Of a stretch of DNA of 64,000 bases, positions 1-61,940 are shown piece after piece. The notes below the pieces were generated by a model. The model had not been told where the DNA came from and searched no databases. It saw only the letters and a list, made by a program, of their open reading frames with translations. This DNA is from Trametes villosa (taxonomy: Eukaryota > Basidiomycota > Agaricomycetes > Polyporales > Polyporaceae), in NCBI GenBank assembly GCA_002964805.2, contig PUDQ02000094.1, positions 1-64,000 of the forward strand, written 5' to 3'. The translations under genes and the position numbers were made by a program. The first letter of the stretch is position 1. The number at the start of each line of letters is the position of its first letter.

Positions 1-532
1 CATGCTCGAGAAGGGCATGAGGGGGATGCCACCAGTCTGTGGCATCGGCGCGCTCGAGCTGGGCGCGCTCTGGAATGCAGGACCCGCTTGATGCGGGAAC
101 TGGAAGCCGCCGCCGTACGGAAACCCGTAGGCGGGCATGCCCTGCGAGAAGGCATGCGGGAACTGCTGGGGGTGGGTTACCCCCGGCATGGACGAGAATG
201 CGGGAGCTGCCGCTTGTTGCGGCAGCAGGAACTGCGAGGGTTGGGGGAAGGGGATGTTTTGTTGTTGAGGGGCCGCAGGTTGCGACCCCTGTTGCTCCGA
301 GGCTTGCTGCCCGGAGCTGCTGGCTTGCGTGTTGTCTTGCGGGGCGTCGTTCATGGCGCGGGCGTCGTTGTTGGTGGTGGTGGTGAGGTGGCAGAGGTCG
401 GTTATGACCCTGCACTCGCGAGGTCGCCGTCTTAAAGCGCCGGCGGAGTCCGAACGCGTCGGTGGCTGCCTCGCGCACGCGAGTCTGCACGTGACGTACT
501 ACTTCACGGTCACGCGCTCTCTGCGCGTGCTC
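1..532 (-). CDS. Third ORF downstream of pol (ORF3), copy 1, partial
   Basis: Counterpart of the ORF at 57174-58910, with the same position about 70 bases after the pol stop and the same sequence apart from substitutions and an 18-bp in-frame difference (about 250-275). The encoded N-terminal part is rich in Pro, Gln, His and Phe/Gly-containing stretches. No ATG is conserved at the start: copy 2 has an ATG at 58793 where this copy has GTG (near 410-425). After the pol TAG, two in-frame stops (TAG, TGA) precede this ORF in both copies, so simple read-through from pol cannot make it. Function unknown. Its place between pol and the 3' LTR is where env-like genes sit in other Ty3 elements, but I see no signal peptide or membrane anchor. 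Confidence 0.55.
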
Positions 533-601
533 TATCCTTCACCACGACTACTCACTCGGGTAGTCTTGACCACGAAGCGCATGTTGCGCTTCGTACATCC
601 G

Positions 602-3600
602 CTAAGTCTTGGCGGATGTTTTCTTGGGCAACGCGCGCCAAGATGACACGCCCATTAAACGACAATACTCGTCTAATGCTACGAGCTCCTTACAGTGCTC
701 GTAGGGTTCCCATGTATGGTCCCCCATCGTCCACCGCACGTGGAACTGGCACTTATTGCCATTCCACTCGTGGCCGATAATCTCTTCCACCAACCATTCG
801 GTGGAGTCTTCATTGCCGAAGTCGTAATACGACTTCGCCTCACGATGCGGAAATACCGCATCGTCGTTTGGCTCATAGCGTCGTAATAGCGACGCGTGGA
901 ACCGAGGGTGTATCCTTCGGTTCCGGAGTTCTTCTGGTAACTCCAGTACGTAGTTTGACGTACTGGGTATGCTTTCAATTATAGCATACGGTCCGATGTA
1001 CTTAGGCACGAGTTTTCGTGCCCGGCCCTTAGGTATCGACAAATTCTTTGTCGATAGGTATACCTTGTCCCCGACTTCAAAGTCGGGTTCGGCTTGCCTA
1101 TGCTTATTCGCATAGTGTGTCTGGCGCACTCGCGCCTCGATGATGGCATCATGCGCCATCTCCAAGTTCGCCTTGGCTCTGAGTGCGAACTCTCGCACTC
1201 CTCGAAACGGAGTGTCCATTCCGATTCCGTTCATAGAACGCGGGAGATACCCGTAGTTCAACTCGAACGGAGCGAACCCTGTGGTAGAACTTACCGCAGA
1301 GTTGATAGCGAACTCCGCTATCGGTAGCTTCTCATACCAGTCCAACTGGTCTGGAGCTACCAGTGCACGGAGTATCTGCGACACTGAGCGTATACTACGC
1401 TCAGATAATCCATCCGTCTGTGGATGGAACGACGTGGACATAAGCAGCTTCGCCCCCATAAGGCGATGCAGTTCCTTCCAGAACTTGGAAGTGAACTTCG
1501 AGTCTCTATCAGAGACTATGGAGTCCGGTAGCCCGTGTAGACGGACTACTTCCCTGAAGTAGACCAGCGCCAGGTCTGACGCTGTGTCGGTTGTCTTGAT
1601 GGGTATGAGGTGTACCATCGAGGTCAACCGACAGACTACAATCCATATGTAGTCGTATCCGTGCGAGGGCGGAAACGGACCGAAGAAATCCATGGACATA
1701 GACGTCCATGGCACCGTGGGTATCGGTAGCGAGTGTAACAGCCCTATAGGGGGCTGTGTACTTATTTTCGTGGTGTGGCACGCGCCGCACGAAATGCAGA
1801 ACTTGTCTACATCCTTGCGTAACGCGGGCCACCAAAACCACTTGCGCACGTACTCTGACGTGCGCTGAGGTCCAAGATGTCCAAGCGCGCTATGCGCTTG
1901 GTCTAACACGAGCTCCTGAAGGGCCCGTTTCCGATACAGACCACGAGGTATGCATAATACCTCGTCGCCTTCACGGTTCTTGGTGTATATCACACCCTCG
2001 CGCATTACGAATGCGCGATGCTGAGTAGGCCGTTCCAGTATTTTCTGGAACGTCGGGTCATTAACATAACCTGACTTGACGGCTTTCAGGAAGCCGTCGT
2101 CTCCTTCTACCCAGACACGCAAAGAGGGACCCGCAGATAGCGAGTCCGACAGCATCACATTGTCGCTGTCCGGGGTTGCTGCAGTCACCGAGATAGGTGC
2201 GTGTGCAGCATAACGAGCCGACTCTACGACTCGTTCCTCTATTGGTTCTTGCACGCGTGTAGCGTGCGCGTTATCTGTCTCTAGCTGCGCGAGTTTCCGC
2301 GCAGATCGACGCAACACTCGAGCTGCGCGTAGCTCGATGAGTCGGGAGAAGGGGAGATCATCCCCTTCAGGATCTAGCCGCAAGTCGGCGTTAACATAGT
2401 CGAAATCTTCGGCTAGTTCCTCTATGTCGTCGTGTTCGAAGTAGCGGGATAAGCAGTCCGCTACTTTGTTTAGGTTACCTGGAATATAGGTAATCGTCTT
2501 GTCGAACCTCGACAAGAATTCGTACCACCGTATCTGACGGTGGTTAGGACGCTCGAGTCCCTCAAGGAACTCGAGAGCTCTATGGTCAGTGACTATATTG
2601 AGCTTTCGTCCTATGAGCTTGTCCTCCCACTTGAACAAGCCTTCCATGATGGCTAGAGCTTCTTGCTCGTAGGTGCGATACGCCCGTTGTGCGGACGTAA
2701 ATTTCTTCGACAGGAACCCGGCTGGCCTGCAAGTTTGCCAGTCGGGTCCTTGCCCGTATAACGCTCCGAGTCCATACACGGACGCATCACAGATCAACCA
2801 AATGGGATCTGTGGAAGCCGGATCTATCGGCTTCAGTATGGGCACCTTACACGCGAGTGCTTTGATAGACTCAAAACACTTGTCGTGCAGTGCGCGCCAT
2901 ACAAACGGACGGTCGTTATGGACCATGTCCGATAACGGCGATGTGTACGCCGTTACATCTGGCATAAAATGTGCCAGATAGTTTACTAGCCCGAGGAACC
3001 GCTGCACCTCGTTATACGAGCGAGGTGTTCGCCAGTTCCTGATACGGCTCATCTTGTCCGTATCGGCGTGTAGTCCCTTGTCATCTATTCGGTGACCGAG
3101 ACAATCCAAGTCTTTGGAGTATAAGTCGCACTTGCTGCGGCTTAGGAAAAGCTTCGCCTCTCGAAGCTTTTCGAACACTATCCTTAAGTGTTCTTCGTGC
3201 TCCTCCTTGGAGTCCGAAAATACGAAAATGTCGTCCAAATAGACATGGACGAACCTTCCGATACAGTCACGGAATATGGCTGTCATTAGACGTTGGAATG
3301 TGGACGGGGCGTTGGTGTCGCCCTGTTGCATGACCTCGCTCACGAACGTCCCGTAAGGCGTCGCGAACGCGGTCTTCCACACGTCCTCCGCAACTATGCG
3401 GATCTGTTCGTAGGCGTCGGACAGATCAATCTTCGAGCGATACTTCGCTCGAGCAACGTCCATCCGGATCTGGTCTTGATCCGGAAACGGTGTCAGGTCG
3501 TGCACCGTGTTCTGGTTTCGTTGTCGCGCATCGAGTACGGTGCGCAGCTTGCCATTCTTCTTGGCAACGCACAGCAGAGGCGCTGCTTGCGTGACCGTTA

Positions 3601-4123
3601 CCGGTCGCCACCAGCCTGCCTTCACATAGCGATTGATTTTCGCTATGAGCTCTGGCTTCACCACGTCCGCGCAACGTGGGAGATGATAGCGATATTTCTT
3701 CGCTTCATCGATGAGCGGAATGTGGTGATTGATCTCCCGGAACGGCGGGAGATGCTCCGGCGCAGGACGCATAATGTCCTCGGTGGCCGCATACCAGCGG
3801 TCACGAAGAGCTTTCAGCTCCTCCTCTTCCTCGTCTATGACGAACCCAGCGTGGGTTCGTCGGATCTGTTCGTCTTCCCACTGCTCCTTGGCTATCTTGT
3901 CCAAGAGCTCGTTGATGCCGTATGGGTCCTCGTACCCATACTTGTCCCTTCTAGGACCTCGCGACGAATGCATCGTCGGAATGAATTTTTCGCCAACGTT
4001 CGGCGGCGAGCTATCTTTGGCTCGCCCTTGGTGTCGTTCAGGAATCTTAACGGTTTCTACACCGTTCCCTCCCCCTCCTGACGACCCTCCGGACTTGTCG
4101 TAACGAGAGTGGGGAGGTTCCAC
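602..4123 (-). CDS. pol: Ty3/gypsy Pol: RT, RNase H, integrase, chromodomain
   Basis: About 1170 residues and apparently intact. In order: reverse transcriptase with the YLDD active-site box (around residue 290, VHVYLDDIFVFS); RNase H with an Asp in LICDASVYGLG, a Glu in YEQEALAIMEG and an Asp in VTDHRALEFL; integrase with an HHCC zinc module (HSALGHL ... CISCGACH), catalytic Asp in MDFFGPFP, Asp in SDRDSKF and Glu in GLSERSIRS; and a C-terminal chromodomain (EEIIGHEWNG ... DHTWEPYEHC). The frame is the same as gag and is open up to the gag TAG (4148-4150). The first codon assigned here is GTG and the first Met is about residue 51, so expression by UAG read-through from gag is more likely than independent initiation. 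Stop is TAG at 602-604. Confidence 0.93.
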   Translation of the reverse strand: MEPPHSRYDKSGGSSGGGGNGVETVKIPERHQGRAKDSSPPNVGEKFIPTMHSSRGPRRDKYGYEDPYGINELLDKIAKEQWEDEQIRRTHAGFVIDEEEEELKALRDRWYAATEDIMRPAPEHLPPFREINHHIPLIDEAKKYRYHLPRCADVVKPELIAKINRYVKAGWWRPVTVTQAAPLLCVAKKNGKLRTVLDARQRNQNTVHDLTPFPDQDQIRMDVARAKYRSKIDLSDAYEQIRIVAEDVWKTAFATPYGTFVSEVMQQGDTNAPSTFQRLMTAIFRDCIGRFVHVYLDDIFVFSDSKEEHEEHLRIVFEKLREAKLFLSRSKCDLYSKDLDCLGHRIDDKGLHADTDKMSRIRNWRTPRSYNEVQRFLGLVNYLAHFMPDVTAYTSPLSDMVHNDRPFVWRALHDKCFESIKALACKVPILKPIDPASTDPIWLICDASVYGLGALYGQGPDWQTCRPAGFLSKKFTSAQRAYRTYEQEALAIMEGLFKWEDKLIGRKLNIVTDHRALEFLEGLERPNHRQIRWYEFLSRFDKTITYIPGNLNKVADCLSRYFEHDDIEELAEDFDYVNADLRLDPEGDDLPFSRLIELRAARVLRRSARKLAQLETDNAHATRVQEPIEERVVESARYAAHAPISVTAATPDSDNVMLSDSLSAGPSLRVWVEGDDGFLKAVKSGYVNDPTFQKILERPTQHRAFVMREGVIYTKNREGDEVLCIPRGLYRKRALQELVLDQAHSALGHLGPQRTSEYVRKWFWWPALRKDVDKFCISCGACHTTKISTQPPIGLLHSLPIPTVPWTSMSMDFFGPFPPSHGYDYIWIVVCRLTSMVHLIPIKTTDTASDLALVYFREVVRLHGLPDSIVSDRDSKFTSKFWKELHRLMGAKLLMSTSFHPQTDGLSERSIRSVSQILRALVAPDQLDWYEKLPIAEFAINSAVSSTTGFAPFELNYGYLPRSMNGIGMDTPFRGVREFALRAKANLEMAHDAIIEARVRQTHYANKHRQAEPDFEVGDKVYLSTKNLSIPKGRARKLVPKYIGPYAIIESIPSTSNYVLELPEELRNRRIHPRFHASLLRRYEPNDDAVFPHREAKSYYDFGNEDSTEWLVEEIIGHEWNGNKCQFHVRWTMGDHTWEPYEHCKELVALDEYCRLMGVSSWRALPKKTSAKT

Positions 4124-4170
4124 TCTTGTGGAACTCGCTACGCTGTCCTACTGCTTAGGTTTAGCAGTAC
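4115..4170 (-). promoter_or_regulatory. Candidate UAG read-through site between gag and pol
   Basis: A single TAG (4148-4150) separates gag from pol in the same frame. A perfect 7-bp hairpin (arms 4163-4169 and 4149-4155) overlaps the first two bases of the stop. A second 7-bp hairpin with a 4-base loop (arms 4128-4134 and 4117-4123) begins 13 bases after the stop. No ATG lies near the pol start. UAG suppression with downstream RNA structure is how gammaretroviruses make Gag-Pol. Caution: hairpins of this size occur throughout this element, so their presence here is not specific. Confidence 0.45.
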
Positions 4171-7100
4171 CTTCGAATTGGAATCGAGGAACCCATTTCT
4201 TGGGTTCGGGTTTCGCAGTCGTCGAAACCTCAGGATCGAATAACGGCAAACTTTTGCCGTTGATTACTACCGTACCTGCACGGAAGTCTAGGATTACTCC
4301 ATGCTTCCTGCAGAAGGTAGTTCCCAACACGACATCGTACTTATCGATGTCTACTACGTCAAAGTATTGCGTAGTATTCACAGAGCCCACCTTGAGCTCT
4401 GCTTGCGCACCATAATTGATGCGCGTCTTGCTGCCCTTGGTTCCCAATTGCAGCCCTACAGGCTGCGCCAGATCGATACGATCTGCGCGACTCAGATACG
4501 CCAACTCTGGCATAATCGAATCGGTCGTGCAGCCCGAGTCGAATAAGGCCAGAGCTGTGACCTTATTGATTGTGATCTCAGCGCATAACGTGCGCTGGGC
4601 CTGGAGCGTGCGCACAGGTTGCGCCGCGGGATCGTCTATACGACGTATCTTGTTGTCGTATAACCAGGCCTGCTTGTACCCTCGCGTGGGTGCAACCGCC
4701 ATGGTGTGTAACCGAAGAGGCTCAGGTTCGGCCTCTTCCAACGGTGCAATACGCATCGCGATGAAGTATTCATCTGCATCTCCCTCTCCAGGAGATGCGT
4801 AATGATCCTCGTCGGGATCATACTGAGATCCTTCCAGACCATAGTCTGACAACGGATATTCTCCGTTATCGTCTGGGCTATCCGCAAGAGCCTCGGGTTC
4901 AGGCTCTTGATCCTCGGGACGAGTTGCCGTGTTGTCGTCGGCAACGTCTTGTTGTGTAGACGGCTCGTTGCCGTCGTCCGACGTGTCGTCGATGACACGC
5001 TGAGCGAACATCCGCTGTACTGTAGCGGATTTCTTCCCGTAGTTGGGACATTTCGCGTCGCTCGCGAAGTGGCCTATTTGACCACAGGAATAGCACTTAA
5101 GAGGTGCTTTCTGAGTCTTATCAATCTGCGCAGTTGACGCGGATTGCTGCACCGCGCCAGACTGACGCGGTACCGAACCACCTCGCACGTCTGTCGAAGG
5201 GCGTTTAAAGCCAGTAGTAGCTTTAGGTGTCGTAATATTATTACTACGGGAAGCCGAAGCCGTTGGCTTCCTAAGTACATTACGCACTCCTCGTTGCGGG
5301 CGTGCCTCTACCGTCGGCTTAGCACCGGTGTTCGGTATAGTATGTGCTCGCGAAGGTTCGCGAGCTAACTTCCGAAGCCGCATAGCGCGCGACTTCTGCT
5401 CAATATCTTGAGCCACTTGGTACAATTGTGCCAAGTCGTGTTCTTGAGGAGACATACCGTTAACAACGGTAAGTAGGTACTCGATGTCTTCGGGTAACGC
5501 CTCAATGAACTTCCTACGCAATTGGAAGGGCGTAGGCTTCTCCCACATCCTTTCGGATATGTACAGCAGCTTCTCATATAAAGCTGCAACCCCTCCGTCA
5601 CTGGAGCGGTAAACTAGCGAAGCATACTGTTGCTCCGCAAGTAGGTTCAAATCCTTATGGATGAACCTACGATAGAGTGCTATAACAGTCTCCTCGAATA
5701 TCCAGTCGCGCTTATCGCGCGACGGAGACTGTATAGTGTTGTAGAACCACGTAGCGGCATCACCGCTAAGTGCAGTGCCCAATATTCGGACACGGTCACG
5801 GTCCATCCTAGGACCCGTGATCCTCAACGTGTTGAAGTACTCGAGGAGGCCTCGCAGCCATACCTCGAGTGCGTCGAGATCGTCCTTCCCCTCGTATGTC
5901 TTGGGTGGTGCAAGTTTCGCCACCTTCAAGTACGCAGGGGGATCACCCTCTGGAGGTGATCCAACCATCTCATCTATCATCCGCACGAGACGGCTGATCG
6001 TTACACCATCACGAGGCCCTACTACAGGCCCCGTGTATGCCAGCGGTTCCGTAGCTTCCGCTGGCTGCATAGGAGGTAATCCTCCGTAATATGCAGACGC
6101 TCCCATTGAACGTCGAGGGTGTTTCCAGTCCCATAGTCCAGGCGGCCGTTCTTGACGGTACGCGGGTCCTTGGGACGCAGACATTGGCTCAGCGGGATAA
6201 TCGCTGGGCGAGGATGGAATTGGCTGCGCGACATGCGCAGCCCTAGTCGACCCTTGCGGATTATCGAATGCAACGTTCCGAGTAGGAACGGCATTCTGTA
6301 CATCGCCAGTTCGACGGTTTGATGAGGACGGCGGCAGTTGCGCCGTCGTGTGCGGTGGATCATACAGCCCCGCACGACTCAGTCGTTCAATCCGGCCAGC
6401 GACGATACGCTGGCGAGGATCCAATAGTGCATCCTCTACTTCGCGATCATCCGCGAAGTTCTCCATTTGCGGATCAGCAGCTGAGCTGATATGTGTATCT
6501 ATGGTTGCCCTTGTCATAGGCAACTCGTCGCTTTCATCCTCACCAGCCACGATAGGCTGATGAATGTGGTGCCCTGCATCGGCATCCTCACTTACCGCTA
6601 TAGCGCGAGCGGTAAGGTCCTCCTCGTCTTCTTCGTCCATTAGGTCACCTAGGCCTAATTCCGCTAATGCGGACTGCAGAGCGAGGTTCGTCTCGTTTTC
6701 TGCCTCGAGTATCTGCTTCTGCAGCAGACGGAATCGTTTCTTCGATTCCCGAACTACCATGCGCAACGGCGCAAGGTTCAGTGTCGGTGCCGCCGACACT
6801 GACGAGCTCGCAGCCAACTGCTGCGAGCGTCCCTCACGCAGATCCTGCCAGTCTTGCCCAATGTTGGCAAGACTCCGACTATTAAGCGAGCTCGCAGCGG
6901 AGCCCGATCGTCGTGACGGGCCTGCTTGGTCTGAAGCCGGTCGTCCAGCATGCACGCTGGCAGTCGCACGACCCCTAGTAGGGTTCGTGGTATCGTCTAA
7001 GCCGCCGGATACCACTGATTGTGGTATCGAGGGTCCACCCTCGCCCTCTGTAGATCGAGGGAGTGACGTGGCGGGTTGACCCGTGCCGAACTCAGCGCGG

Positions 7101-7177
7101 GGGGGTTGGTTCGAGGTAGAAGTCGAGGCCCGCGGAGTTCGCGGGTCCGTGGGGTTGTTTGAGCTGTGGTGGCTCAT
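4148..7177 (-). CDS. gag: Ty3/gypsy Gag with aspartic protease
   Basis: 1009 residues from a true ATG at 7175-7177. The N-terminal third is low-complexity and acidic, with a charged, probably coiled-coil stretch (residues about 130-190). A retrotransposon Gag domain follows at about residues 400-610 (DALEVWLRGLLEYFN ... FEETVIALYRRFIH). One zinc knuckle is at about 700 (CYSCGQIGHFASDAKC), with spacing C-x2-C-x4-H-x6-C, two residues longer after His than the usual x4. The C-terminal protease has the catalytic box LALFDSGCTTDSI at about 890. It ends at TAG 4148-4150, followed in the same frame by pol. Synonymous positions are shaped into hairpins almost continuously. Confidence 0.9.
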   Translation of the reverse strand: MSHHSSNNPTDPRTPRASTSTSNQPPRAEFGTGQPATSLPRSTEGEGGPSIPQSVVSGGLDDTTNPTRGRATASVHAGRPASDQAGPSRRSGSAASSLNSRSLANIGQDWQDLREGRSQQLAASSSVSAAPTLNLAPLRMVVRESKKRFRLLQKQILEAENETNLALQSALAELGLGDLMDEEDEEDLTARAIAVSEDADAGHHIHQPIVAGEDESDELPMTRATIDTHISSAADPQMENFADDREVEDALLDPRQRIVAGRIERLSRAGLYDPPHTTAQLPPSSSNRRTGDVQNAVPTRNVAFDNPQGSTRAAHVAQPIPSSPSDYPAEPMSASQGPAYRQERPPGLWDWKHPRRSMGASAYYGGLPPMQPAEATEPLAYTGPVVGPRDGVTISRLVRMIDEMVGSPPEGDPPAYLKVAKLAPPKTYEGKDDLDALEVWLRGLLEYFNTLRITGPRMDRDRVRILGTALSGDAATWFYNTIQSPSRDKRDWIFEETVIALYRRFIHKDLNLLAEQQYASLVYRSSDGGVAALYEKLLYISERMWEKPTPFQLRRKFIEALPEDIEYLLTVVNGMSPQEHDLAQLYQVAQDIEQKSRAMRLRKLAREPSRAHTIPNTGAKPTVEARPQRGVRNVLRKPTASASRSNNITTPKATTGFKRPSTDVRGGSVPRQSGAVQQSASTAQIDKTQKAPLKCYSCGQIGHFASDAKCPNYGKKSATVQRMFAQRVIDDTSDDGNEPSTQQDVADDNTATRPEDQEPEPEALADSPDDNGEYPLSDYGLEGSQYDPDEDHYASPGEGDADEYFIAMRIAPLEEAEPEPLRLHTMAVAPTRGYKQAWLYDNKIRRIDDPAAQPVRTLQAQRTLCAEITINKVTALALFDSGCTTDSIMPELAYLSRADRIDLAQPVGLQLGTKGSKTRINYGAQAELKVGSVNTTQYFDVVDIDKYDVVLGTTFCRKHGVILDFRAGTVVINGKSLPLFDPEVSTTAKPEPKKWVPRFQFEGTAKPKQ

Positions 7178-7279
7178 TCTTGCTGGATGCGGATGGGGGT
7201 TGCTAGGGGATTAGAGTTCGATGACGTGGTTGCACGTCGAGCCCCAAATCGGGCGATTCTAACACGGTAGAGTAAAAAA

Positions 7280-7568
7280 GTGTTAAACTCACGAATGTCG
7301 GGCACTTCTGATGCCCGCAGTCTCCAAGTACTCTGGTCCGGGCTCTATTAGGGCTCGGCGTACTCGGGAGATGGTGGGGCAGTTGTAGAAGGCTGCCCTC
7401 ACCAGACGCGCGGGCTCCGAATACCCGCGCGTCGTACGCGTCTATCTACTACATGATATCTACGCGGTATCTTATCCTAGCGCAACTAGCGCCAGGTACT
7501 GGTTGCGACATAGCGCAACTAGCGCTATGTCCTACAAGAACCCGTAACGACCGCGGAGGGTCGTTACA
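7280..7568 (-). repeat. 5' LTR of gypsy copy 1 (289 bp)
   Basis: Begins TG and ends CA on either strand. A second copy lies at 35085-35372 with about 95% identity by eye, which fixes both ends. Internal inverted repeats include GTAACGACC (7544-7552) with GGTCGTTAC (7559-7567), at the element's 5' edge, and two copies of the TAGCGC/GCGCTA pair. The sequence just inside the LTR (7261-7279) does not start with TGG, so no ordinary tRNA primer site is evident. Confidence 0.88.
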
Positions 7569-8461
7569 TACTGCCAGGACGCGTGCGGGTGTTAAACGCG
7601 ATAGCTGATGGTGGTGAGGGTGAACGAAGCATTCCATCAGGAATCCAGGCTCAATACTATTTACCTGCGCTAAGGAGCTCATCGAGCTGTATGTGGTATT
7701 GACCTCGCCCTACTATCGCCTCGAGGCTTGCCGTGAGCGCTGTAGCAATCATGGGGAATCAGCAAGAACAAGTAAGTTGAGGGCATCGGCAGTGCGCTCA
7801 CATTCGGTAGCCATGACTCGACACCGCTATCCCGCGCACACACGAAACGAGCAGAAGGGGGAGAGCAGGGGATGCAGTGTGAGGATGAGTGCGCCGGGGA
7901 GCTACTGAAGTGCTGAGTCGCAGGACCAGCGGGCGAATAGACGCCGCGAGCGGGGCATGACCCCAAGATATCTAGCACAACATGAGGCGCGGATCCGCAT
8001 CAGGGGGCCCGTCGAGACGTCCCCGTACCAGCTGGCCAAATCGTCCACGAACCGCGGCCATGTGTTTTGTCCGGGTTCACCGGGCGGCGCCGTGCTTCGT
8101 GGGCTTGCTCTGATGGTAGAACGTCGTCAGCAACTAGCTCGTAGCCTTACACTGGTCGCACCCCGCGGACTCCCACATGACCGGCACAGCGAACTTCTCG
8201 TGGGATACGCATCGATAAAGCAATATTAAGAAGTCGACCAACATGAAAGCATAGCAAACAGCAACACAACGTAGATATAGCGAGCGGGGAATACGGATGA
8301 GAGCAGAAAGCAGGCTTGGCAAGGTGAAGCGTAGGGAATAGGGAATGTATGGGGTAAGGAGCGTGGTGGGAGGCTAGACGATATTCAAGATATTCAAAAA
8401 GCACGTCCTGGGTTCATAGCCCCATCGGGTCTCACGGACGGCGGGGGCTACTACGGAGGAA
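7569..8461. other. No gene recognised
   Basis: Sequence flanking the gypsy LTR. Short open frames exist on both strands but none has recognisable motifs or a convincing splice pattern. It may be the remains of the locus into which copy 1 inserted. Confidence 0.4.
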
Positions 8462-34351: not shown

Positions 34352-35084
34352 ATGGCTCTCCTAGAGCCTAGCTCCAGCGTCCCGTCACTCGCAGCTTCCT
34401 TTGCTCTCTGTATCGCACTTGTCTTCCTCGCAGGATCAGCCCTAGGATGGAGAACACGCTCTCGAGGCCTTCTGCTGCCTCCTGGTCCAATACCTCTCCC
34501 CATCATCGGCAATCTGTTTGACTTTCCCAAGGACAAGGCTTGGACCGGCTTCCGCGAGATGAGCCGGAAGCACGGTGAGTGGCAGAACTGTATCACTTCT
34601 CTGACAGAGCATCGAAACTAAGAACTCTACTCTAGGCGAGATCGTACACCTTAATGTACTTGGACAATCCGTGGTTGTGCTCGGGTCTGCCAGCGTTGTA
34701 ATCGAGTACCTCGAGAAGCGGTCGAGGAACTCAGCCGATAGGGCGCCGAGCCCCGTATTCGACCTGTGCGTATCTTGTGCATTCTCTACCGATTACCGTG
34801 ACGCTGACCGCGGCTCAGATCTGGGCAGCTATTCAACTTTGCCATCCTGCGCTACGGGCAGTGGTGGAGGCAACACCGCCGCGCATTCTGGCAACAATTC
34901 CACCCGGGCGCTGTGGCGAAGTACAACCGAATTCAACTCACCCACACACACCGATTCCTAGGGCGGCTTCTCCAATCCCCTTCGAGAGCAACCGACCACG
35001 TCGGATTGTGGGTGTCTGACTCGATCGACATATCCCCGGTCCGTCTGCGTACGACTAACCTTCATTCCTTCAGCTCTCTGTCAG
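34352..35084 (+). pseudogene. Cytochrome P450, 5' remnant cut by a gypsy LTR
   Basis: ATG at 34352. Exons 34352-34574, 34636-34765 and from 34819, with canonical GT-AG introns. N-terminal membrane anchor (SFALCIALVFLAGSALGW), proline hinge (LLLPPGPIPLPIIGNLFDFP) and the early helices typical of Agaricomycete P450s (FNFAILRYGQWWRQHRRAF, FHPGAVAKYNRIQ). A further intron (GTGTCTG ... TTCAG) and the first 11 bases of the next exon are followed directly by the LTR at 35085. The ExxR and haem-binding regions are absent from the window, so this cannot encode an active enzyme. Confidence 0.85.
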
Positions 35085-35372
35085 TGTAAAACTCACGGGT
35101 GTCGGGCACTTCTGATGCCCGCAGTCTCCTAGTACTCTGGTCCGGGCTCTATTAGGGCTCGGCGTACTCGGGAGATGGTGGGGCAGTTGTAAAAGGCTGC
35201 CCTCACCAGATGCGCGGGCTCCGAATACCCGCGCGTCGTACGCGTCTATCTACTACATGATATCTACGCGGTATCTTATCCTAGCGCAACTAGCGCTAGG
35301 TACTGATCGCGACATAGCGCAACTAGCGCTATGTCCTACAAGAACCCCTAACGACCACGGAGGGTCGTTACA
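35085..35372 (-). repeat. 3' LTR of a truncated gypsy element (same family as copy 1)
   Basis: 288 bp, near-identical to 7280-7568 and in the same orientation. On the minus strand it is preceded by a polypurine tract (AGAGGGGGAGAG, 35373-35384), which marks it as a 3' LTR with internal sequence to the right rather than a solo LTR. The internal part is continued at 40680 beyond hAT element B. Confidence 0.85.
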
Positions 35373-40388: not shown

Positions 40389-40679
40389 ATATAGCATCTC
40401 ATAATACAGACTGTGCTTGGATGAACATCTGGCTTGGACTTGATGATAATTTGAATGAAAGGACTGGTCCTGGACCGTCAGGACCAGTCCGGACCGGAAA
40501 ACGGTCCAGGACCGGTCTGGACCGGGGACAGGACCGCGGTCCTTTGCGGTCTTTCAAGGACCGCGGTCCTGGTCCAGTCCTACATAATTAGACCAGTCCT
40601 GTCCTGGTCCCAGTCCTGGTCCTCCTTCCGAGGGGGCAAAAGACCGGACAGGACCGGACCCTGCAACACTACTGCTGAT

Positions 40680-41490
40680 ATTCGCAGTCATAGCACTATA
40701 TGATACAAAGAGTTGCGCATAGTGCGTGCGCAACTCACATATACAATGAGTCAGTGAGCCAAGTAGGCTCACGGTGTGGTCACAGTAGTGCAGTGGGATA
40801 TATACACGACTGCAAATGGTAGCAGTCATTCCACTACACTACCATGGTATGGTAGTGTGTTTGTTTTAGGGTTTTATGGATGCGCGCACCGTGAGGTGCG
40901 GCTATATACATTAGTACCGCAACTATGGCGGACGAACCGATCAATTTTTGACGCAGATCGGTTGTGTTATGCCCGAGGAGACGATAATACCGTCTCCTAC
41001 AGGGACTGCAAATATTTGCAGTCATACCGTCGTGGTATACGACGAGTGCATGACGGTTGCACTCGAAGATTTGTTATTAGACACCTACGCGGTGTCATCG
41101 TGGGGCAATGACGGGGTGAGAGTGTCGGACATTCCTTAGGCGCCATCCGATGACTCGGGAGGGCTCCCGAGGGCGCGGAGGGCGGGCCGGCCTCGGGATC
41201 CCACTCGAGGGGATACAATTGTTCGCGAGGGACCTGTGAGGTCATCGAGAGATCGAGGCCGTCATCCCGATGCACTGCACCAACATCCCGAGGGCATCGC
41301 GTAGGCAAACCGAACCTCCAGATATCACTGATCCATCGTGATATCTAAGCGTCCTCCCAAGGCCATCGGGTACCTCCCGGGCACCTCGGGTGCCTGACCG
41401 AAAGACCGGGAGGGCAAAAATTGCCTCGGGGCAGTCCCGATGGTGCGAAGCGTACCCCGAGAGCCCCGAGTACGCCATGAGCTGGAGGGG
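40680..41490 (-). mobile_element. Internal 3' remnant of a hairpin-rich gypsy element
   Basis: Continuation of the element whose 3' LTR is at 35085-35372. No coding sequence recognised. Dense short inverted repeats, such as the perfect 20-bp palindrome at 41004-41023, GTGAGCC/GGCTCAC (about 40755-40773) and GACACC/GGTGTC (about 41080-41096), are of the same style as copy 1. The right boundary is not defined. Confidence 0.6.
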
Positions 41491-41654
41491 CTTAGTTCAC
41501 GGTTGAGGTTCTATAGAACTACTTACTATACGACTTTCAAAGGCAGACTTACCAGTTAGTGACTCGATGTTATCCGTCTTTTCTTGCACGGCTTCTACTG
41601 TTTGAACAAATGTTAGTAAACTGAAGAGGGTTAGACTGAAGGTAAATGTCAACG

Positions 41655-41737
41655 CGCACCTGTGGGGACTCGAACCCAGGACCTTCTGAGTTAATAAGCG
41701 CCGAGCCACGCGATCAAAACCACTACGCCAATGGTCC
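41655..41737 (-). pseudogene. tRNA-like sequence with pol III A and B boxes
   Basis: On the minus strand there is an A box TGGCGTAGTGG (41720-41730) and a perfect B box GGTTCGAGTCC (41666-41676) with tRNA-like spacing. The acceptor ends do not pair, the T stem pairs poorly and no proper anticodon stem forms. It is therefore a decayed tRNA gene or the tRNA-derived head of a SINE, not a working tRNA. Confidence 0.5.
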
Positions 41738-42399
41738 TTTACTTCCTTTGTTTGCAGACCTAATACATCGAGACCTGATTACCCCTTACTTAGAGTATTA
41801 TCGAGTAGGAATCCCATTGCACCTCTCATCGGCGGAGGACTGCACCCTCTCCATTGCTCGTCGCTGACGGTGTAGGAGACGCGTGAACTGTGTGCATATA
41901 TTGTGGGAAGGATACATTGTACAGGTACATACTCCGCTTGCAAGAAACAGGACTGATACTACTTCGCCCGCGACCTAGTCACCCTGGTTGAACGCCTCGC
42001 CGATGACTCTTGGATGCCTGCCTCGCTCGGGGGAGTCGACGGCTGCGCAAGGTCCTCCGGGGCTCCGCTCGTGTTTCCGGTTTTCTTTTGGCCGCCGCGT
42101 TTGGCGGGAGCCTTCCGCGGGACCGGGCGAACAGCCTCCTCGAGGGGCCCAGAGTCCACTGGTACTGGCAAGAGGTTTACCGAGATTGCAGGGTTCCCGT
42201 CGAGCTCTACGTTGGCCAATGCCTCAGTCAGCGATTCAGAGCTGACTGGGTGATGCTCGGCTGTGGGCAGCGGGGCGATCGGGGGCGGCTGCGACTGCAG
42301 CACCTGGGATGGGAGCGACGACTCGCCCAAGTTCTGTGCGGGGCGCGCGACGGGGCGAGGGCGGGGCGGCACGCGTTTCTACGCGGGTGGGGGAACCGC

Positions 42400-55795: not shown

Positions 55796-57292
55796 TCAGA
55801 TAAGTTCGCACTCACTATAGATCCTCGGCTTGATGATATGAGCTTGATGGTATAACAGGACTATTCGACAGCGGGCCACAGCAATGTAGATACAGTTAAG
55901 AACAAGACGAGAGTGGTGGTACAGGACACCGCGCCCTGCGCAACCCCGCGCGATCCTCTGTGATACCATCGCGAAGCCTCCCGCGATCGCTTGATCGGCG
56001 CGATAACGATCTCGGAATCGCGAGTGCCGCACGAGTTCATCGAGATATCTCAGGCACCCGCGTCTGGCATCCGGAGGGCCGCTCCGGGCTTGGAGGTAGC
56101 GCTCGAGGGGCGGGCCATGCTCCCGAGCGCCTCCCGTTGGCCGCGAGAAAGATCCCGAGGGGGCCGGAGGGCGCTCCGAGGTTGGCGCCCTCGGGATGCC
56201 CCTAAGCTTTCTCCGACAAGGGGAGGATCCCTGCTCACCCGTCGCGTTCTCGCTCTCGTCGTGCCTGTCGCTAGTAGCGGCAGGCAGTTGGGAAGGTCCG
56301 GCGACGGGTGCCTCCTGCATGTCCTCCATCGCGCGAGCGGGGGAGTACGGCGGAGGTGGGACTCCGTCATCGGGATGGGTACCCGTCACTACGTGTGACG
56401 GGGTCGAGGCAATGCTCGACGGTTCGGCGACCGCAGTTATGGCGGTCGCGGTGGTGGTGGTGGACGCGTCGGTCATGTCGACGTCGTCGGTGGTAACGGC
56501 AGGCGCCTCGGGCGCCTGCGGGGGTGCGGGTGCTGGCGCGGGTGCTGGTGCTGGTGCGGGCGCGGGTGCAGGTGCGGGCGCATTGGGTGGCGGTAGTGGG
56601 CCGCCTGTAGCGACCGGTCCCAGGTCCTGTGAACTGGGCACGACTCCGACGTTGAGGGTCGAATTCGGGCCGCCATCCATTTGAGGCAGCGACGACCGAA
56701 GGTCGCGCCCGTTCCGCTCGTTGCGGCACAGTCTCGCGAGCGGTAGGAACCGCTCCGCAGCCGTTGGGGTAAGGCCGCGCGCCGCAAACCAGCGCGCTAG
56801 GTGGAACAACGTCGTGCTTGCGACGTCGTTGGGGTAGGGGCCCGGGTGGTAGCTAGTACCTACGGGGTACTGCCCCTGCTCTACCACGTAACAGTAGAGC
56901 CCCGGCACTGAGGAGAGCCAGTGGGCGAGGGTCACCCAGTGCCCTCGCGGCCCCAGTGGCGTGCTGCGCGGCAGCATCGCTCGAACGTCAACGTGGTATT
57001 CCACGCTGTGCGTTGTAGGAAGCCCATTTGGCTCCCGCTCCATCCACTGAGGGATACGGCGCTCATCAACGCCGTACCAGGCCTGCCACACAGCAGGCGG
57101 GTCACTGAAGCTCGGCTGGTTTGGGGCCGGCGCCGTGCGCTGGGCACGCAGCTTCAGCTTGACCTCCCGCCACTCAGCGGGCGTCCGCTTGCGCGAGAGG
57201 GTTGACGACGGCGGCGGCAAGTGCGCCGTCGACGCATGCTCGAGTCCAGGGGGGGGTGTTTCCCCGGGAGTCGGCTCGTTGAAACGCCGCAA
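55796..57292 (-). CDS. ORF4 of the gypsy element, probably the continuation of ORF3
   Basis: About 500 codons, opening without an ATG (a TTG at 57292). Ordered part: DPPAVWQAWYGVDERRIPQWM, TLAHWLSSVPGLYCYVVEQG, TTLFHLARWFAARGLTPTAAERFLPLARLCRNER; then an (AP)n stretch, Ser/Pro-rich sequence and a tail. The last 45 codons (from about 55930) may be flanking DNA. It overlaps the end of ORF3 in another frame. A run of eight G (57249-57256) at the overlap is where a one-base slip would fuse them into one protein. No known family. Confidence 0.5.
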   Translation of the reverse strand: MRRFNEPTPGETPPPGLEHASTAHLPPPSSTLSRKRTPAEWREVKLKLRAQRTAPAPNQPSFSDPPAVWQAWYGVDERRIPQWMEREPNGLPTTHSVEYHVDVRAMLPRSTPLGPRGHWVTLAHWLSSVPGLYCYVVEQGQYPVGTSYHPGPYPNDVASTTLFHLARWFAARGLTPTAAERFLPLARLCRNERNGRDLRSSLPQMDGGPNSTLNVGVVPSSQDLGPVATGGPLPPPNAPAPAPAPAPAPAPAPAPAPPQAPEAPAVTTDDVDMTDASTTTTATAITAVAEPSSIASTPSHVVTGTHPDDGVPPPPYSPARAMEDMQEAPVAGPSQLPAATSDRHDESENATGEQGSSPCRRKLRGIPRAPTSERPPAPSGSFSRPTGGAREHGPPLERYLQARSGPPDARRGCLRYLDELVRHSRFRDRYRADQAIAGGFAMVSQRIARGCAGRGVLYHHSRLVLNCIYIAVARCRIVLLYHQAHIIKPRIYSECELI

Positions 57293-58910
57293 TCAGCGGC
57301 GGTGGCGCCTCTCGACGCCACGACGATTGTAGCTGGTTAAGGCCAGCCACTCCGGTGTACTCCGAGTGGGAGTTCACTTGACCAATTAGGTTGCGGATGC
57401 GGTGAGCCGCCTCACCCGTATCACGGCGAGCAGCCATGATGATGTTGTTGGCGTCCGCGACGGACACCGGCACGTAGTTGTACCAGTGCCCCGCAAGACG
57501 CGGGTCCGAATCGGTGGGGAGGGCCAACAGGTGGTACGGCCACCCGGGGACCCTCGCCACATCCGTCGCTGGTTGCGGCGGAGGTTGCGTGCCAAACGGC
57601 GCGCCCTGACCCGGAGCATGTGCCGGGCCAGTGTCGCGACGAGCACGACGATACCGGTTTTGAGAGACGAGTCTCTCGATCCGCCTCTCGTCGATATCGT
57701 CGTCCTCGTCGCTCGTCGCGTTCTCCCAGTCCACCATAGGGTGGTCCCGGTCCGCGGATGTCGACGAGGTCGGCATCGCCGTCGAGTTTGACGGTCCTGC
57801 CACGTTTGGCGTCGTCATCTGCGACGCTCCAGTCCTCGATGGTCCTGCCCCGCTGGGCAGCGACACGATCGGCATCAAGCTGGGCCCAGCAGACGGCGCT
57901 GAGCTCCTTGATGTCGACGCGAACGACCTATCGTTCGCAGTATCCCTCCTCCGAGGGCTGAGTTCCCTCGGGTCGCGTCGTTGTTCGTCGCGCGGAGGCG
58001 ACGCCCTCCTGTGCCGAGCCCGACTGAGCTCAGCCTCCAACTGCGAGCGCACTTCATCGCGCTCGCGCTCGTACTTGTCGCGCTCCTGGTGAGCGGCCTC
58101 GCGCTCGCTCCGGTACCTGTCCCGGATCGACTTCGTCTCGTTGACGAGCTCCTTCATCTTCTGGAGCTTCGCCTCGAGCTCCGCGATCCGATCGCGGCTC
58201 CTCCCCTCCTCCACCCTCTGGTGCTCCTCGAAGTGCCGCCAGAACCGCTGCTGCAGTTCTGACTGGACGCGCGTCTGCGCGTCCCGGAACGTCGAGTCTG
58301 ACGCCGCCGAGTTGTAGTGGCGGACAAAGTCCGCGCACACAGCGCAGTTGTCGCTGTGCGCGACCAACAAATGTTGGCCCGCTACGGGCGCCCAGGTCAT
58401 GCTCGAGAAGGGCATGAGGGGGATGCCACCAGTCTGTGGCATCGGCGCGCTCGAACTGGGCGCGCTCTGGAATGCAGGACCCGCTTGATGCGGGAACTGG
58501 AAGCCGCCGCCGTACGGAAACCCGTAGGCGGGCATGCCCTGCGAGAAGGCATGCGGGAACTGCTGGGGGTGGGTTACCCCCGGCATGGACGAGAACGCGG
58601 GAGCTGCTGCTTGTTGCGGCAGCAGGAACTGATGAGGTTGGGGGAAGGGGCCGCTGGTTGCGACCCCTGTTGCTCCGAGGCTTGCTGCCCGGAGCCGCTG
58701 GCTTGTGTGTTGTCTTGGGGGGTGTCGTTCATGGCGCGGGCGTTGTTGTTGGTGGTGGTGGTGAGGTGGCAGAGGTCGGTTATGACCCTGCATTCGCGAG
58801 GTCGCCGTCTTAAAGCGCCGGTGGAGTCCGAACGCGTCGGTGGCTGCCTCGCGCACGCGAGCCTGCACGTGACGTACTACTTCACGGTCACGCGCTCTCT
58901 GCGCGTGCAC
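57174..58910 (-). CDS. ORF3 downstream of pol: coiled-coil protein, unknown function
   Basis: 578 codons open from a GTG at 58910; the first ATG is at 58793 (MQGHNRPLPPHHHHQQQ). N-terminal 150 residues are Pro/Gln/His/Phe-rich. A Cys-pair motif follows (HSDNCAVCADFVRHYNSA), then a long charged coiled coil (about residues 225-310: IAELEAKLQKMKELVNETKS ...), an Arg/Ser-rich stretch and a C-terminal part (VARVPGWPYHLLALPTDSDP, DANNIIMAARRDTGEAAHRI). Copy 1 has the same ORF at the same place. It has no signal peptide or membrane helix, so it does not look like an envelope protein. Expression must involve re-initiation, splicing or a separate transcript, since stops separate it from pol. Confidence 0.6.
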   Translation of the reverse strand: MHAQRARDREVVRHVQARVREAATDAFGLHRRFKTATSRMQGHNRPLPPHHHHQQQRPRHERHPPRQHTSQRLRAASLGATGVATSGPFPQPHQFLLPQQAAAPAFSSMPGVTHPQQFPHAFSQGMPAYGFPYGGGFQFPHQAGPAFQSAPSSSAPMPQTGGIPLMPFSSMTWAPVAGQHLLVAHSDNCAVCADFVRHYNSAASDSTFRDAQTRVQSELQQRFWRHFEEHQRVEEGRSRDRIAELEAKLQKMKELVNETKSIRDRYRSEREAAHQERDKYERERDEVRSQLEAELSRARHRRASPPRDEQRRDPRELSPRRRDTANDRSFASTSRSSAPSAGPSLMPIVSLPSGAGPSRTGASQMTTPNVAGPSNSTAMPTSSTSADRDHPMVDWENATSDEDDDIDERRIERLVSQNRYRRARRDTGPAHAPGQGAPFGTQPPPQPATDVARVPGWPYHLLALPTDSDPRLAGHWYNYVPVSVADANNIIMAARRDTGEAAHRIRNLIGQVNSHSEYTGVAGLNQLQSSWRREAPPPLIAAFQRADSRGNTPPWTRACVDGALAAAVVNPLAQADAR

Positions 58911-58979: not shown

Positions 58980-61484
58980 CTAAGTCTTGGCGGATGTTTT
59001 CTTGGGCAACGCGCGCCAAGCAGATACGCCCATTAGACGACAATATTCGTCTAATGCTACGAGCTCCTTGCAGTGCTCGTAGGGTTCCCAGGTATGGTCC
59101 CCCATCGTCCACCGCACGTGGAACTGGCACTTGTTGCCATTCCATTTGTGGCCGATAATCTCTTCCACCAACCATTCGGTGGAGTCTTCATTGCCAAAGT
59201 CGTAATACGACTTCGCCTCACGATGTGGGAATACCGCATCGTCGTTTGGCTTATAGTGTCGTAATAGCGACGCGTGGAACCGAGGGTGTATCCTTCGGTT
59301 CCGGAGTTCTTCTGGTAGCTCCAGTACGTAGTTTGACGTACTGGGTATGCTTTCGATTATAGCATACGGTCCGATGTATTTAGGCACGAGCTTTCGTGCT
59401 CGGCCCTTAGGTATCGACAAATTCTTTGTCGATAGGTATACCTTGTCCCCGACTTCAAAGTCGGGTTCGGCTTGCCTATGCTTATTCGCATAGTGTGTCT
59501 GGCGCACTCGCGCCTCGATGATGGCATCATGCGCCATCTCCAAGTTCGCCTTGGCTCTGAGTGCGAACTCTCGCACTCCTCGAAACGGAGTGTCCATTCC
59601 GATTCCGTTCATAGAACGCGGGAGATACCCGTAGTTCAACTCGAACGGAGCGAACCCTGTGGTAGAACTTACCGCAGAGTTGATAGCGAACTCCGCTATC
59701 GGTAGCTTCTCATACCAGTCCAACTGGTCTGGAGCTACCAGTGCACGGAGTATCTGCGACACTGAGCGTATACTACGCTCAGATAATCCATCCGTCTGTG
59801 GATGGAACGACGTGGACATAAGCAGCTTCGCCCCCATAAGGCGATGCAACTCCTTCCAGAACTTGGAAGTGAACTTCGAGTCTCTATCAGAGACTATGGA
59901 GTCCGGTAGCCCGTGTAGACGGACTACTTCCCGGAAGTAGACCAGCGCCAGGTCTGACGCTATGTCGGTTGTCTTGATGGGTATGAGGTGTACCATTGAG
60001 GTTAACCGACAGACTACAATCCATATGTAGTCGTATCCGTGCGAGGGCGGAAACGGGCCGAAGAAATCCATGGACATAGACGTCCATGGAACCGTAGGTA
60101 TCGGTAGCGAATGTAACAGCCCTATAGGGGGCTGTGTACTTATTTTTGTGGTGTGGCACACGACGCACGAAATGCAGAATTTATCTACATCCTTGCGCAA
60201 TGCGGGCCACCAAAACCACTTGTGCACGTACTCTGACGTGCGCTGAGGTCCAAGATGTCCAAGCGCGCTATGCGCTTGGTCTAACACGAGCTCTTGAAGG
60301 GCCCGTTTCCGATACAGACCACGAGGTATACACAATACCTCGTCGCCTTCACGGTTCTTGGTGTATATCACACCCTCGCGCATTACGAATGCGCGATGCT
60401 GAGTAGGCCGTTCCAGTATTTTCTGGAACGTCGGGTCATTAACATAACCTGACTTGACGGCTTTCAGAAAGCCGTCGTCTCCCTCTACCCAGACACGCAA
60501 TGAGGGACCCGCAGAGAGCGAGTCCGACAGCGTCACGTTGTCGCTGTTCGTGGGCACTGCAGTTACCAAAACAGGTGCATGTGCAGCGTAACGAGCCGAT
60601 TCTACGACTCGTTCCTGTATTGGTTCTTGCACGCGTGCAGCGTGCGTGTTTTCTGCTTCTAACTGTGCGAGTTTTCGCGCGGATCGACGCAGGACTCGAG
60701 CTGCACGTAGCTCGATGAGTCGGGAGAAGGGGAGATCATCCCCTTCAGGATCTAGCCGCAAGTCGGCATTAACATAGTCGAAATCTTCGGCTAGTTCCTC
60801 TATGTCGTCGTGTTCGAAGTAGCGGGACAAACAGTCCGCTACTTTGTTCAGTTTACCTGGAATATAGGTAATCGTCTTGTCGAACCTCGATAAGAATTCG
60901 TACCACCGTATCTGACGGTGGTTAGGACGCTCGAGTCCCTCAAGGAACTCGAGAGCTCTATGGTCAGTGACTATATTGAGCTTTCGTCCTATGAGCTTGT
61001 CCTCCCACTTGAACAAGCCTTCCATGATGGCGAGAGCTTCTTGCTCGTAGGTGCGATACGCCCGTTGTGCGGACGTAAATTTCTTCGACAGGAACCCGGC
61101 TGGCCTGCAAGTTTGCCAGTCGGGTCCTTGCCCGTATAACGCTCCGAGTCCATACACGGACGCATCACAGATCAGCCAAATGGGATCTGCGGAAGCCGGA
61201 TCTATCGGCTTCAGTATGGGCACCTTACACGCGAGTGCTTTGATAGACTCAAAGCACTTGTCGTGCAGTGCGCGCCATACGAACGGACGGTCGTTATGGA
61301 CCATGTCCGATAACGGCGATGTGTACGCCGTTACATCTGGCATAAAATGTGCCAGATAGTTCACTAGTCCGAGGAACCGCTGCACCTCGTTATACGAGCG
61401 AGGTGTCCGCCAGTTCCTGATACGGCTCATCTTGTCCGTATCGGCGTGTAGTCCCTTGTCATCTATTCGGTGACCGAGGCAATC
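58980..61484 (-). CDS. pol: Ty3/gypsy Pol, copy 2, 5'-truncated
   Basis: Nearly identical to residues from LGHRIDDKGLHADTDKM onward of copy 1: the last part of RT, RNase H (LICDASVYGLG), integrase (HSALGHL ... CISCVVCH; MDFFGPFP; SDRDSKF; GLSERSIRS) and chromodomain. RT catalytic YLDD lies upstream of the break and is absent. The codons upstream of 61484 belong to the LTR of the inserted element. Stop TAG 58980-58982. Frame otherwise open. Confidence 0.9.
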   Translation of the reverse strand, partial: DCLGHRIDDKGLHADTDKMSRIRNWRTPRSYNEVQRFLGLVNYLAHFMPDVTAYTSPLSDMVHNDRPFVWRALHDKCFESIKALACKVPILKPIDPASADPIWLICDASVYGLGALYGQGPDWQTCRPAGFLSKKFTSAQRAYRTYEQEALAIMEGLFKWEDKLIGRKLNIVTDHRALEFLEGLERPNHRQIRWYEFLSRFDKTITYIPGKLNKVADCLSRYFEHDDIEELAEDFDYVNADLRLDPEGDDLPFSRLIELRAARVLRRSARKLAQLEAENTHAARVQEPIQERVVESARYAAHAPVLVTAVPTNSDNVTLSDSLSAGPSLRVWVEGDDGFLKAVKSGYVNDPTFQKILERPTQHRAFVMREGVIYTKNREGDEVLCIPRGLYRKRALQELVLDQAHSALGHLGPQRTSEYVHKWFWWPALRKDVDKFCISCVVCHTTKISTQPPIGLLHSLPIPTVPWTSMSMDFFGPFPPSHGYDYIWIVVCRLTSMVHLIPIKTTDIASDLALVYFREVVRLHGLPDSIVSDRDSKFTSKFWKELHRLMGAKLLMSTSFHPQTDGLSERSIRSVSQILRALVAPDQLDWYEKLPIAEFAINSAVSSTTGFAPFELNYGYLPRSMNGIGMDTPFRGVREFALRAKANLEMAHDAIIEARVRQTHYANKHRQAEPDFEVGDKVYLSTKNLSIPKGRARKLVPKYIGPYAIIESIPSTSNYVLELPEELRNRRIHPRFHASLLRHYKPNDDAVFPHREAKSYYDFGNEDSTEWLVEEIIGHKWNGNKCQFHVRWTMGDHTWEPYEHCKELVALDEYCRLMGVSAWRALPKKTSAKT

Positions 61485-61940
61485 TGTCGCGGAGCTAGGC
61501 CCGGCACGACGAGGTACTGCACACAACTAAGAAAACTAAAACGATCTAACTCCCGGGGTGGTGGACGAAAGTCTCACAACACCTGAGCGTAGGTTCTCAC
61601 GGCGAATCTAGCCCAAAGACCAAGTTAACATTCAGAACATAAGAGCGAATACAAAACAAGGCTTACCTAGCCCAAAGACCAAGAGGTCAAGATGAGGGCT
61701 AGGGTCGCTACAGGGGTCCTTATATACTAAGCAAGGGGGGCCAAACATGTACAAATGTAGAGGTGGTCTGTGCGCACAATGCACTCAACCTGCAGGTAGG
61801 GATCAGGTGATGAGTCCCGTGATCTATCTACTCTAACTCTAAGTCCCGTGCGTGCTAAGTACCGTAGAATGGCCGTAGAAAAGCAGGAGAAATGCGGAAA
61901 AATATGGAAAAATACAGGGCGTCTAGTCGTCTCCATGACA
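61485..61940 (-). repeat. 3' LTR of the Tf2-like gypsy (456 bp)
   Basis: Minus strand begins TGTCATGGAGAC and ends GCTCCGCGACA. A TATATAAGG-type TATA box lies at about 61719-61729 (minus). The left end is fixed by loss of homology between copies 1 and 2 of the host element; the right end by the polypurine tract. Confidence 0.88.

Follow-up and report, generated by a model that had tools for sequence, protein, structure and literature searches.

A Ty3/gypsy retrotransposon family of Trametes villosa is filled with short perfect hairpins, consistent with weak selection on their arms

Our analysis of a 64,000-nucleotide stretch of Trametes villosa DNA (assembly GCA_002964805.2, contig PUDQ02000094.1, positions 1 to 64,000; the whole stretch is referred to as the window) showed that an element whose sequence identifies it as a Ty3/gypsy long terminal repeat (LTR) retrotransposon is rich in short perfect hairpins, and that the pattern is carried mainly by synonymous positions and by the non-coding parts. 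The reading that we favour, with moderate confidence, is that the nucleotide sequence of this clade of elements is under weak, pervasive selection for local Watson-Crick hairpins, perfectly paired along stems of about 7-10 base pairs (bp).

A hairpin was defined as a perfect inverted repeat with arms of at least 6 bases and a loop of 1-12, and counts were set against 60 shuffles in which neither the protein nor the codon use changes; a second type of shuffle, which also keeps the dinucleotides at codon boundaries, left the picture unchanged. The pol gene has 19.9 hairpins per kilobase (kb) against a shuffle mean of 2.8 (standard deviation (SD) 0.8, maximum 4.3), gag has 19.5 against 3.3, and in a second copy within the window the values are 20.3 against 3.2 for pol and 16.7 against 4.7 for a third open reading frame (ORF3); the 15.1/kb of the LTR and untranslated region (7178-7640) is a raw density, an observed count set against no shuffles. 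In the main-family pol locus L001, 30 hairpins have arms of at least 8, compared with about 1 in shuffles, giving densities of 8.5/kb for arms of at least 8 (n8) and 1.1/kb for arms of at least 10 (n10). The controls from outside the family were a Tf2-like pol (3.4 hairpins/kb against 2.7 in shuffles), the tnp2 transposase ORF at 12325-14028 (2.3 against 2.2), 30 other reverse transcriptase (RT) loci, described below, and the remaining blocks of the window, where 22 of the 23 2-kb blocks of 8001-54000 hold 1.5-6.5 hairpins/kb and the outlier, 40001-42000, holds 12.5. The tnp2 ORF had been considered as a host-like control and was rejected in that role on its Pfam match; five other ORFs of the window have no Pfam match. 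The inverted-repeat excess is limited to spacers of about 1-15, with a peak at 5-7, and nothing comparable is seen for mirror or direct repeats. All ten hairpins listed in a first-pass annotation of this DNA are perfect and lie where it placed them, and the density is indeed higher than in protein-preserving shuffles and in the Tf2-like pol, comparisons that it had asked for. Because the excess survives shuffles that keep protein, codons and boundary dinucleotides, chance or a compositional artefact can be set aside as an explanation with near certainty, and the mirror and direct repeats, the other elements and the rest of the window speak against it as well.

The arms of these hairpins are conserved among copies of the family. 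For this comparison, 22 other main-family copies were projected on the copy L007, in which the hairpins were defined and which was excluded from the variant counts; 5927 of 6519 sites were used (at least 12 copies covering, L007 counted), and variants were classed as shared (in two or more copies) or private (in a single copy). At third positions of pol, shared variants occupy 9/361 sites in arms, 84/663 in the rest and 27/149 in loops (2.5%, 12.7% and 18.1%; arm versus rest, odds ratio 0.18, p 5e-9), while private variants show no depletion in arms (26/361 versus 57/663, odds ratio 0.83, p 0.47). At synonymous sites the shared counts are 13/359 in arms versus 113/809 outside; shared synonymous variants are thus four- to five-fold rarer in arms, with no depletion in loops. 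At nonsynonymous sites the counts (4/701 in arms versus 18/1650 in others) are too small to decide. In the flanks, arms hold 8/718 shared variants versus 42/1374, and 49/718 private ones versus 85/1374. A non-coding set, consisting of the 3' region and LTR of seven sequences compared with the C10 copy, gives differences in 19/947 cells in arms, 63/1182 in the rest and 25/336 in loops (p 6e-5). In the 76% sister subfamily (L021 versus L022, with hairpins taken from L019), 3/72 synonymous sites differ in arms of at least 8, versus 185/1071 (p 0.002), and 11/140 in arms of 6 and more, versus 168/966. The contrast is weaker for more distant non-coding relatives, of which L063 differs at 5.6% of arm sites versus 13.0% outside. 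Since shared variants are scarce in arms and private ones are not, the arms are conserved during the propagation of copies and, judging by the private variants, decay afterwards like other DNA. Among the pol variants of the main copies, C>T and G>A changes (majority to minority) make up 101 of the 155 private and 80 of the 140 shared ones, as post-insertion decay predicts.

The hairpin trait is graded within one clade. Of 227 candidates in the genome (46.7 Mb, 140 contigs), 39 pol matches were scored, with a protein identity of 97-100% in 26, of 75-76% in 6 and of 57-59% in 7. The main family reaches 19.9 (L001) and 19.6 (L012) hairpins/kb in pol, and the six copies of the 76% group 6.9-8.7 (z 5.8-7.3 in the five tested); in the 57-59% group the values are 10.0 in a 1-kb piece of L069 (z 4.3), 5.0 in L068 (z 2.7) and 2.7 in L030, a member at 59% (z 0.0). 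Among the other RT loci, which are the 30 best of 150 RVT_1 matches and include several copies of one family, 29 lie near shuffled levels (z -1.3 to 1.7). The exception is L033 (z 3.6), in which 5 of the 10 stems of 7 bp and more belong to a repeat lying upstream, which recurs in flanking sequence of L009 and L021. This is a separate repeat, also rich in perfect hairpins, with arms of 7-11 bp (L033 about 250-540, L009 303-589, L021 29-317); its versions at L009 and L021 are 95-98% identical to that of L033, and no similarity to the main-family pol was seen. A stretch of L043 (about 650-870) resembles an LTR and comes from a related family. Close to its start are three hairpins, located as in the LTR of the window and quite different in sequence; farther in, the stretch is 71% identical to window positions 7219-7457. 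Only 4 hairpin centres coincide between subfamilies, out of 29 in L019 and 69 in L001, and both subfamilies therefore gained most of their hairpins separately; the codons of the two encode nearly the same protein despite the different hairpin positions. The nearest named proteins, among the best 120 of 854 significant matches, are from Trametes pubescens and T. sanguinea (76%). Among relatives in IMG/VR one stretch fitted a pattern and none was confirmed.

The first-pass annotation had described the element as tiled end to end with hairpins. Its account of their abundance holds, while near-gapless tiling was an overstatement: the arms alone cover 28% of pol and the hairpins including loops 39%, and the gaps between pol hairpins fit random placement except that pairs without any gap are slightly in surplus (3 observed versus 0.9 ± 1.0 expected; gap of at most 4: 9 versus 8.3 ± 2.6). 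The 160 coding bases that it had quoted are a dense spot. Complementarity past the stem ends is at background level, so that stems end abruptly. The loops of L001 pol are AT-rich, with high A and low C (18.6% versus 26.5% outside hairpins), and the loop table reveals no tetraloop preference; longer stems have slightly lower GC (rho -0.15, p 0.03). Across the entire element, A is preferred at the first positions of loops. A fixed stem-plus-loop span of 20-23 nucleotides, a kind of ruler (SD 3.14 versus 3.68 with permuted loops), was considered and dropped: the anticorrelation between arm and loop is present in codon-shuffled hairpins too (-0.195 versus -0.296 here), the mean span is similar in most simulated sequences, and spans are longer in the 76% family, where hairpins are few.

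A mutational origin had been proposed alongside selection, in which the reverse transcriptase switches template within a hairpin and makes imperfect arms perfect. In such fold-back copying the nascent complementary DNA (cDNA) would fold on itself and copy one arm from the other, giving perfect hairpins in one step and repairing mismatches. A mechanism of this kind is published for ribosomal RNA genes, in the excerpt of that work considered here (PMC8794818), and it would suit the strict Watson-Crick pairing, the near strand symmetry, the abrupt stem ends and the restriction to one clade of elements, as well as the proportion of arms of 8 and more relative to 6 and more, which exceeds that of the point-mutation simulation settings; selection with a stem threshold also accounts for the long arms. 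Under fold-back copying, half of the changes repaired in one arm should reappear in its partner. With repair of 80% of arm changes, pol would be expected to hold 4.4 shared compensated pairs, but 0 were found (P 0.012). The whole projected region holds 1 compensated pair in 16,439 pair cells, private to L016, in a hairpin that crosses the end of pol and hence lies outside the pol-only count. The non-coding parts hold 0 in 479 pair cells with loops up to 12, where by our own arithmetic, with copies that are not independent, some 31 arm changes are missing and about 16 of them would have been copied; loops up to 14 add one pair, in L063. These two pairs speak for fold-back copying, as do the larger numbers in L064 and L065. 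In all, comparison with L063, L064 and L065 (90, 79 and 74% identity) gives 1, 3 and 7 compensated pairs, at least 2 of the 7 in a badly aligned stretch, next to 0, 2 and 4 non-pairing double changes. Hairpins that vary among copies differ almost only by single changes, and no birth of several bases at once was seen, within about 3% divergence, older births being saturated; there is no amino-acid drag (18/300 arm codons versus 43/808 others changed on L001 only) and no left/right asymmetry of arm changes. A search for asymmetric arm rewriting relative to L019 gave no signal (55 observed versus a null of 65.6 ± 7.9), although synonymous sites are saturated. The compensating-change check that the first-pass annotation had called for on family copies found next to nothing within the family (no shared pair, one private) and a few compensated pairs relative to the more distant copies. 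Template switching did not emerge as what keeps the arms perfect, and as the explanation of the pattern we consider it unlikely; it is possibly an older origin of the hairpins.

The pairing is strictly Watson-Crick and nearly strand-symmetric, and this bears on whether folding of the sense genomic RNA is selected, for its packaging or its stability, in the manner of the genome-scale ordered RNA structure (GORS) of some RNA viruses. The sense strand of L001 pol folds at -36.9 per 100 nucleotides versus -25.5 in codon shuffles (z -21.8, 20 shuffles), and in 4 of 5 sequences the sense strand has the slightly greater folding excess (the L030 pol has a mild sense excess, z -4.0); the antisense strand is, however, nearly as extreme (-35.8 versus -25.4, z -21.2). 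The slightly AT-richer longer stems are in keeping with folding of the sense RNA. G.U is not clearly spared in arms, a moderate preference for it being compatible with the minor alleles found there (14 G.U versus 10 A.C shared; 8 versus 5 in the non-coding part; 7 versus 8 in the 76% family). Its share of predicted pairs lies below that of shuffles on both strands of L001 (sense 6.5% versus 11.9%, antisense 7.2% versus 13.9%) and L019 (7.5% versus 10.7%, 10.5% versus 15.2%), the corresponding values for L030 being 11.9% versus 11.9% and 12.2% versus 14.3%; the lack of a tetraloop preference and the few hairpin centres shared between subfamilies also argue against sense-RNA folding. Given that G.U is not clearly spared and that the strands are symmetric, ordinary sense-RNA folding fits poorly, and we regard it as improbable. 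Selection on structure, as the first-pass annotation had proposed it, is supported in outline, by the arm constraint and the simulations, but does not look like ordinary folding of sense-strand RNA, with G.U about as frequent as A.C and both strands about equally stabilised. There remains a mutational ratchet, in which unpaired sites would mutate faster during the element's cycle and paired ones be shielded, so that the sequence drifts to the paired state and stays there. The order of shared variants, lowest in arms and highest in loops, agrees with this, as do the near strand symmetry, the near absence of compensated pairs, the lack of amino-acid drag and the AT-rich loops. In simulations of the synonymous evolution of the element's Pol protein, with n6 the density of hairpins with arms of at least 6, a first set comprised 7 shielding settings, including the neutral one, and 5 selection settings, and the observed targets were n6 19.9, n8 8.5 and n10 1.1/kb with an arm constraint of 0.26. 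Five-fold shielding of paired sites misses them (n6 10-12, n8 1-2/kb), and fifteen-fold shielding gives 23.2 and 5.2/kb. Private variants are not depleted in arms, and A>G and T>C account for 43 of the 140 shared changes (majority to minority), so C deamination alone cannot be the agent. We consider such a ratchet quite unlikely.

Selection with a threshold of 7 bp gave, at a strength S of 0.5 per bp, n6 15.9, n8 5.9 and n10 0.7/kb with an arm constraint of 0.24, and at 0.7 per bp 24.5, 8.9 and 1.5/kb with 0.16, the simulated constraint being only roughly comparable to a polymorphism ratio. In these models density, arm lengths and constraint are approached jointly when perfect stems of 7 bp or more are weakly selected, and not when paired sites are shielded; the cause would thus be selection, of about 0.5-0.7 scaled units per bp, rather than a mutational bias. 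With the two strands nearly on a par and no clear sparing of G.U, the agent may be one that sees both polarities, although our confidence in this is low. Transcripts and antisense small-RNA guides might, for example, both be made self-folding, which would amount to evasion of silencing; single-stranded cDNA could be an alternative substrate of both polarities. More tentatively, and with some doubt, we raise the possibility of a strand-symmetric second code, that is, genome-wide selection for short perfect self-complementarity, independent of position and protein, possibly as a sequence-wide defence against homology-based silencing. Several points weigh against selection for perfect hairpins. 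Were RNA stability selected, one would expect G.U to be spared and tolerant helices to form, but the helices stop abruptly, and G.U and A.C are close to balance among shared (14 versus 10) and private (41 versus 42) minor alleles and among the one-mismatch stems standing in L001 (13 and 14). Selecting each of hundreds of hairpins is a heavy demand, and any benefit or function is a proposal drawn from sequence. Shared variants are not depleted in arms at first and second positions of pol (8/699 versus 16/1340), the contrast between arms and outside is weak at 74-79% identity (L064 17.5 versus 24.1%, L065 22.0 versus 28.8%), and counts over copies are not mutually independent. In the simulations, none of the 5 settings that count stems of 5 or 6 bp and up fits, 2 of the 12 settings of the second set come close, a fit chosen after the fact, the simulated constraint (0.24-0.16) is somewhat stronger than the observed one, and n8/n6 is 0.37 as compared with 0.43 observed.

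The features of the window that belong to the element, together with the Tf2-like control, are collected in Table 1. The Pfam domains of pol follow the order RVT_1 (187-346), RT_RNaseH (438-540), Integrase_H2C2 (733-787) and rve (807-900), the last at 26.9 bits, under its cut-off of 32.6. ORF3 follows pol (L062 313-2880 in the C10 copy; window 1-353 and 55796-58910); copy 2 carries it as two separate, overlapping frames, neither with a Pfam match. The C10 copy has its 5' part replaced (L061 1706-4433): its LTR matches only over the initial 112 bases or so, the beginning of gag is missing, and unrelated sequence lies between the LTR piece and the remaining gag. The region 40461-41122 was considered as an LTR and dropped, 40668-41122 being a 3' non-coding fragment; beside it, 40461-40609 holds dense GGTCC/GGACC palindromic repeats, including an inverted repeat with 16-bp arms.

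Table 1. Features of the hairpin-rich family and of the control element in the window (aa, amino acids).
Feature	Position	Strand	Remark
5' LTR, 288 bp, TG...CA ends, perfect hairpins including 7544-7552/7559-7567	7281..7568	-	97.6% match to 3' LTR of C10 copy
ORF1, predicted gag with zinc knuckle, 1009 aa, 19.5 hairpins/kb	4148..7177	-	
pol (RT, RNase H, integrase), 1173 aa, 19.9 hairpins/kb	602..4123	-	
ORF3, initial part, cut by contig end	1..353	-	855 aa in C10 copy
Dense spot, six perfect hairpins quoted in first-pass annotation	898..1056	.	
10-bp hairpin between pol and ORF3	572..594	.	
Copy 2, pol part, 97% protein identity, 20.3 hairpins/kb	58980..61490	-	
Copy 2, ORF3 part, 16.7 hairpins/kb	57174..58910	-	
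3' non-coding fragment of main family, rich in hairpins	40668..41122	-	
Further main-family LTR with same U3 hairpins, preceded by some 3' internal sequence	35083..35372	-	
Tf2-like pol, negative control, 3.4 hairpins/kb	61952..63994	-	

The first-pass annotation knew of no description of such a pattern, and in the open-access literature, judged by titles and abstract openings, we likewise found no report of a hairpin-saturated retrotransposon. The element resembles other Ty3/gypsy elements (Metaviridae) of Polyporales in its LTRs, its gag zinc knuckle and its order of RT, RNase H and integrase, but differs in being saturated with hairpins in coding and non-coding parts and in the extra ORF of 855 aa after pol; the Trametes relatives were compared by protein only. 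GORS is a trait of RNA viruses, and the element shares with it an excess of local folding across coding sequence at synonymous sites; along pol, the part covered, the folding energy of L001 is lower than that of sequence-order controls. The G.U-tolerant structure of the genomic strand that characterises GORS was not found, since in L001 the antisense z is -21.2 and the G.U share is about halved on both strands, although the shared arm variants (14 G.U versus 10 A.C) are compatible with a moderate tolerance. The element is, in contrast, an LTR retrotransposon with both strands about equal, few G.U pairs and short perfect stems that end abruptly. Template-switch mutations have been described as creating and maintaining RNA hairpins (Monttinen and Loytynoja, 2022, PMC8794818); going by the excerpt of that paper, the short-range perfect Watson-Crick hairpins are alike, whereas there they concern RNA genes and arise via DNA replication, and here close copies are nearly free of compensated pairs and arm changes are removed. 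The genomic RNA of yeast Ty3 is likewise a structured Ty3-type RNA, for which a folded core and dimerisation through 5' palindromes are reported (PMC11381356), although the abstract of that paper makes no mention of hairpins throughout. What the T. villosa family adds is an approximately seven-fold excess of perfect hairpins in pol, an excess present in every part of the element examined, graded among relatives and accompanied by measurable constraint. It makes testable whether the entire coding sequence of a mobile element can be shaped by selection on nucleic-acid folding, and what such selection is directed against. If the cause were mutational, a reverse transcriptase would be showing a new mutational bias; if the hairpins serve to evade silencing, they would be a new kind of counter-defence.

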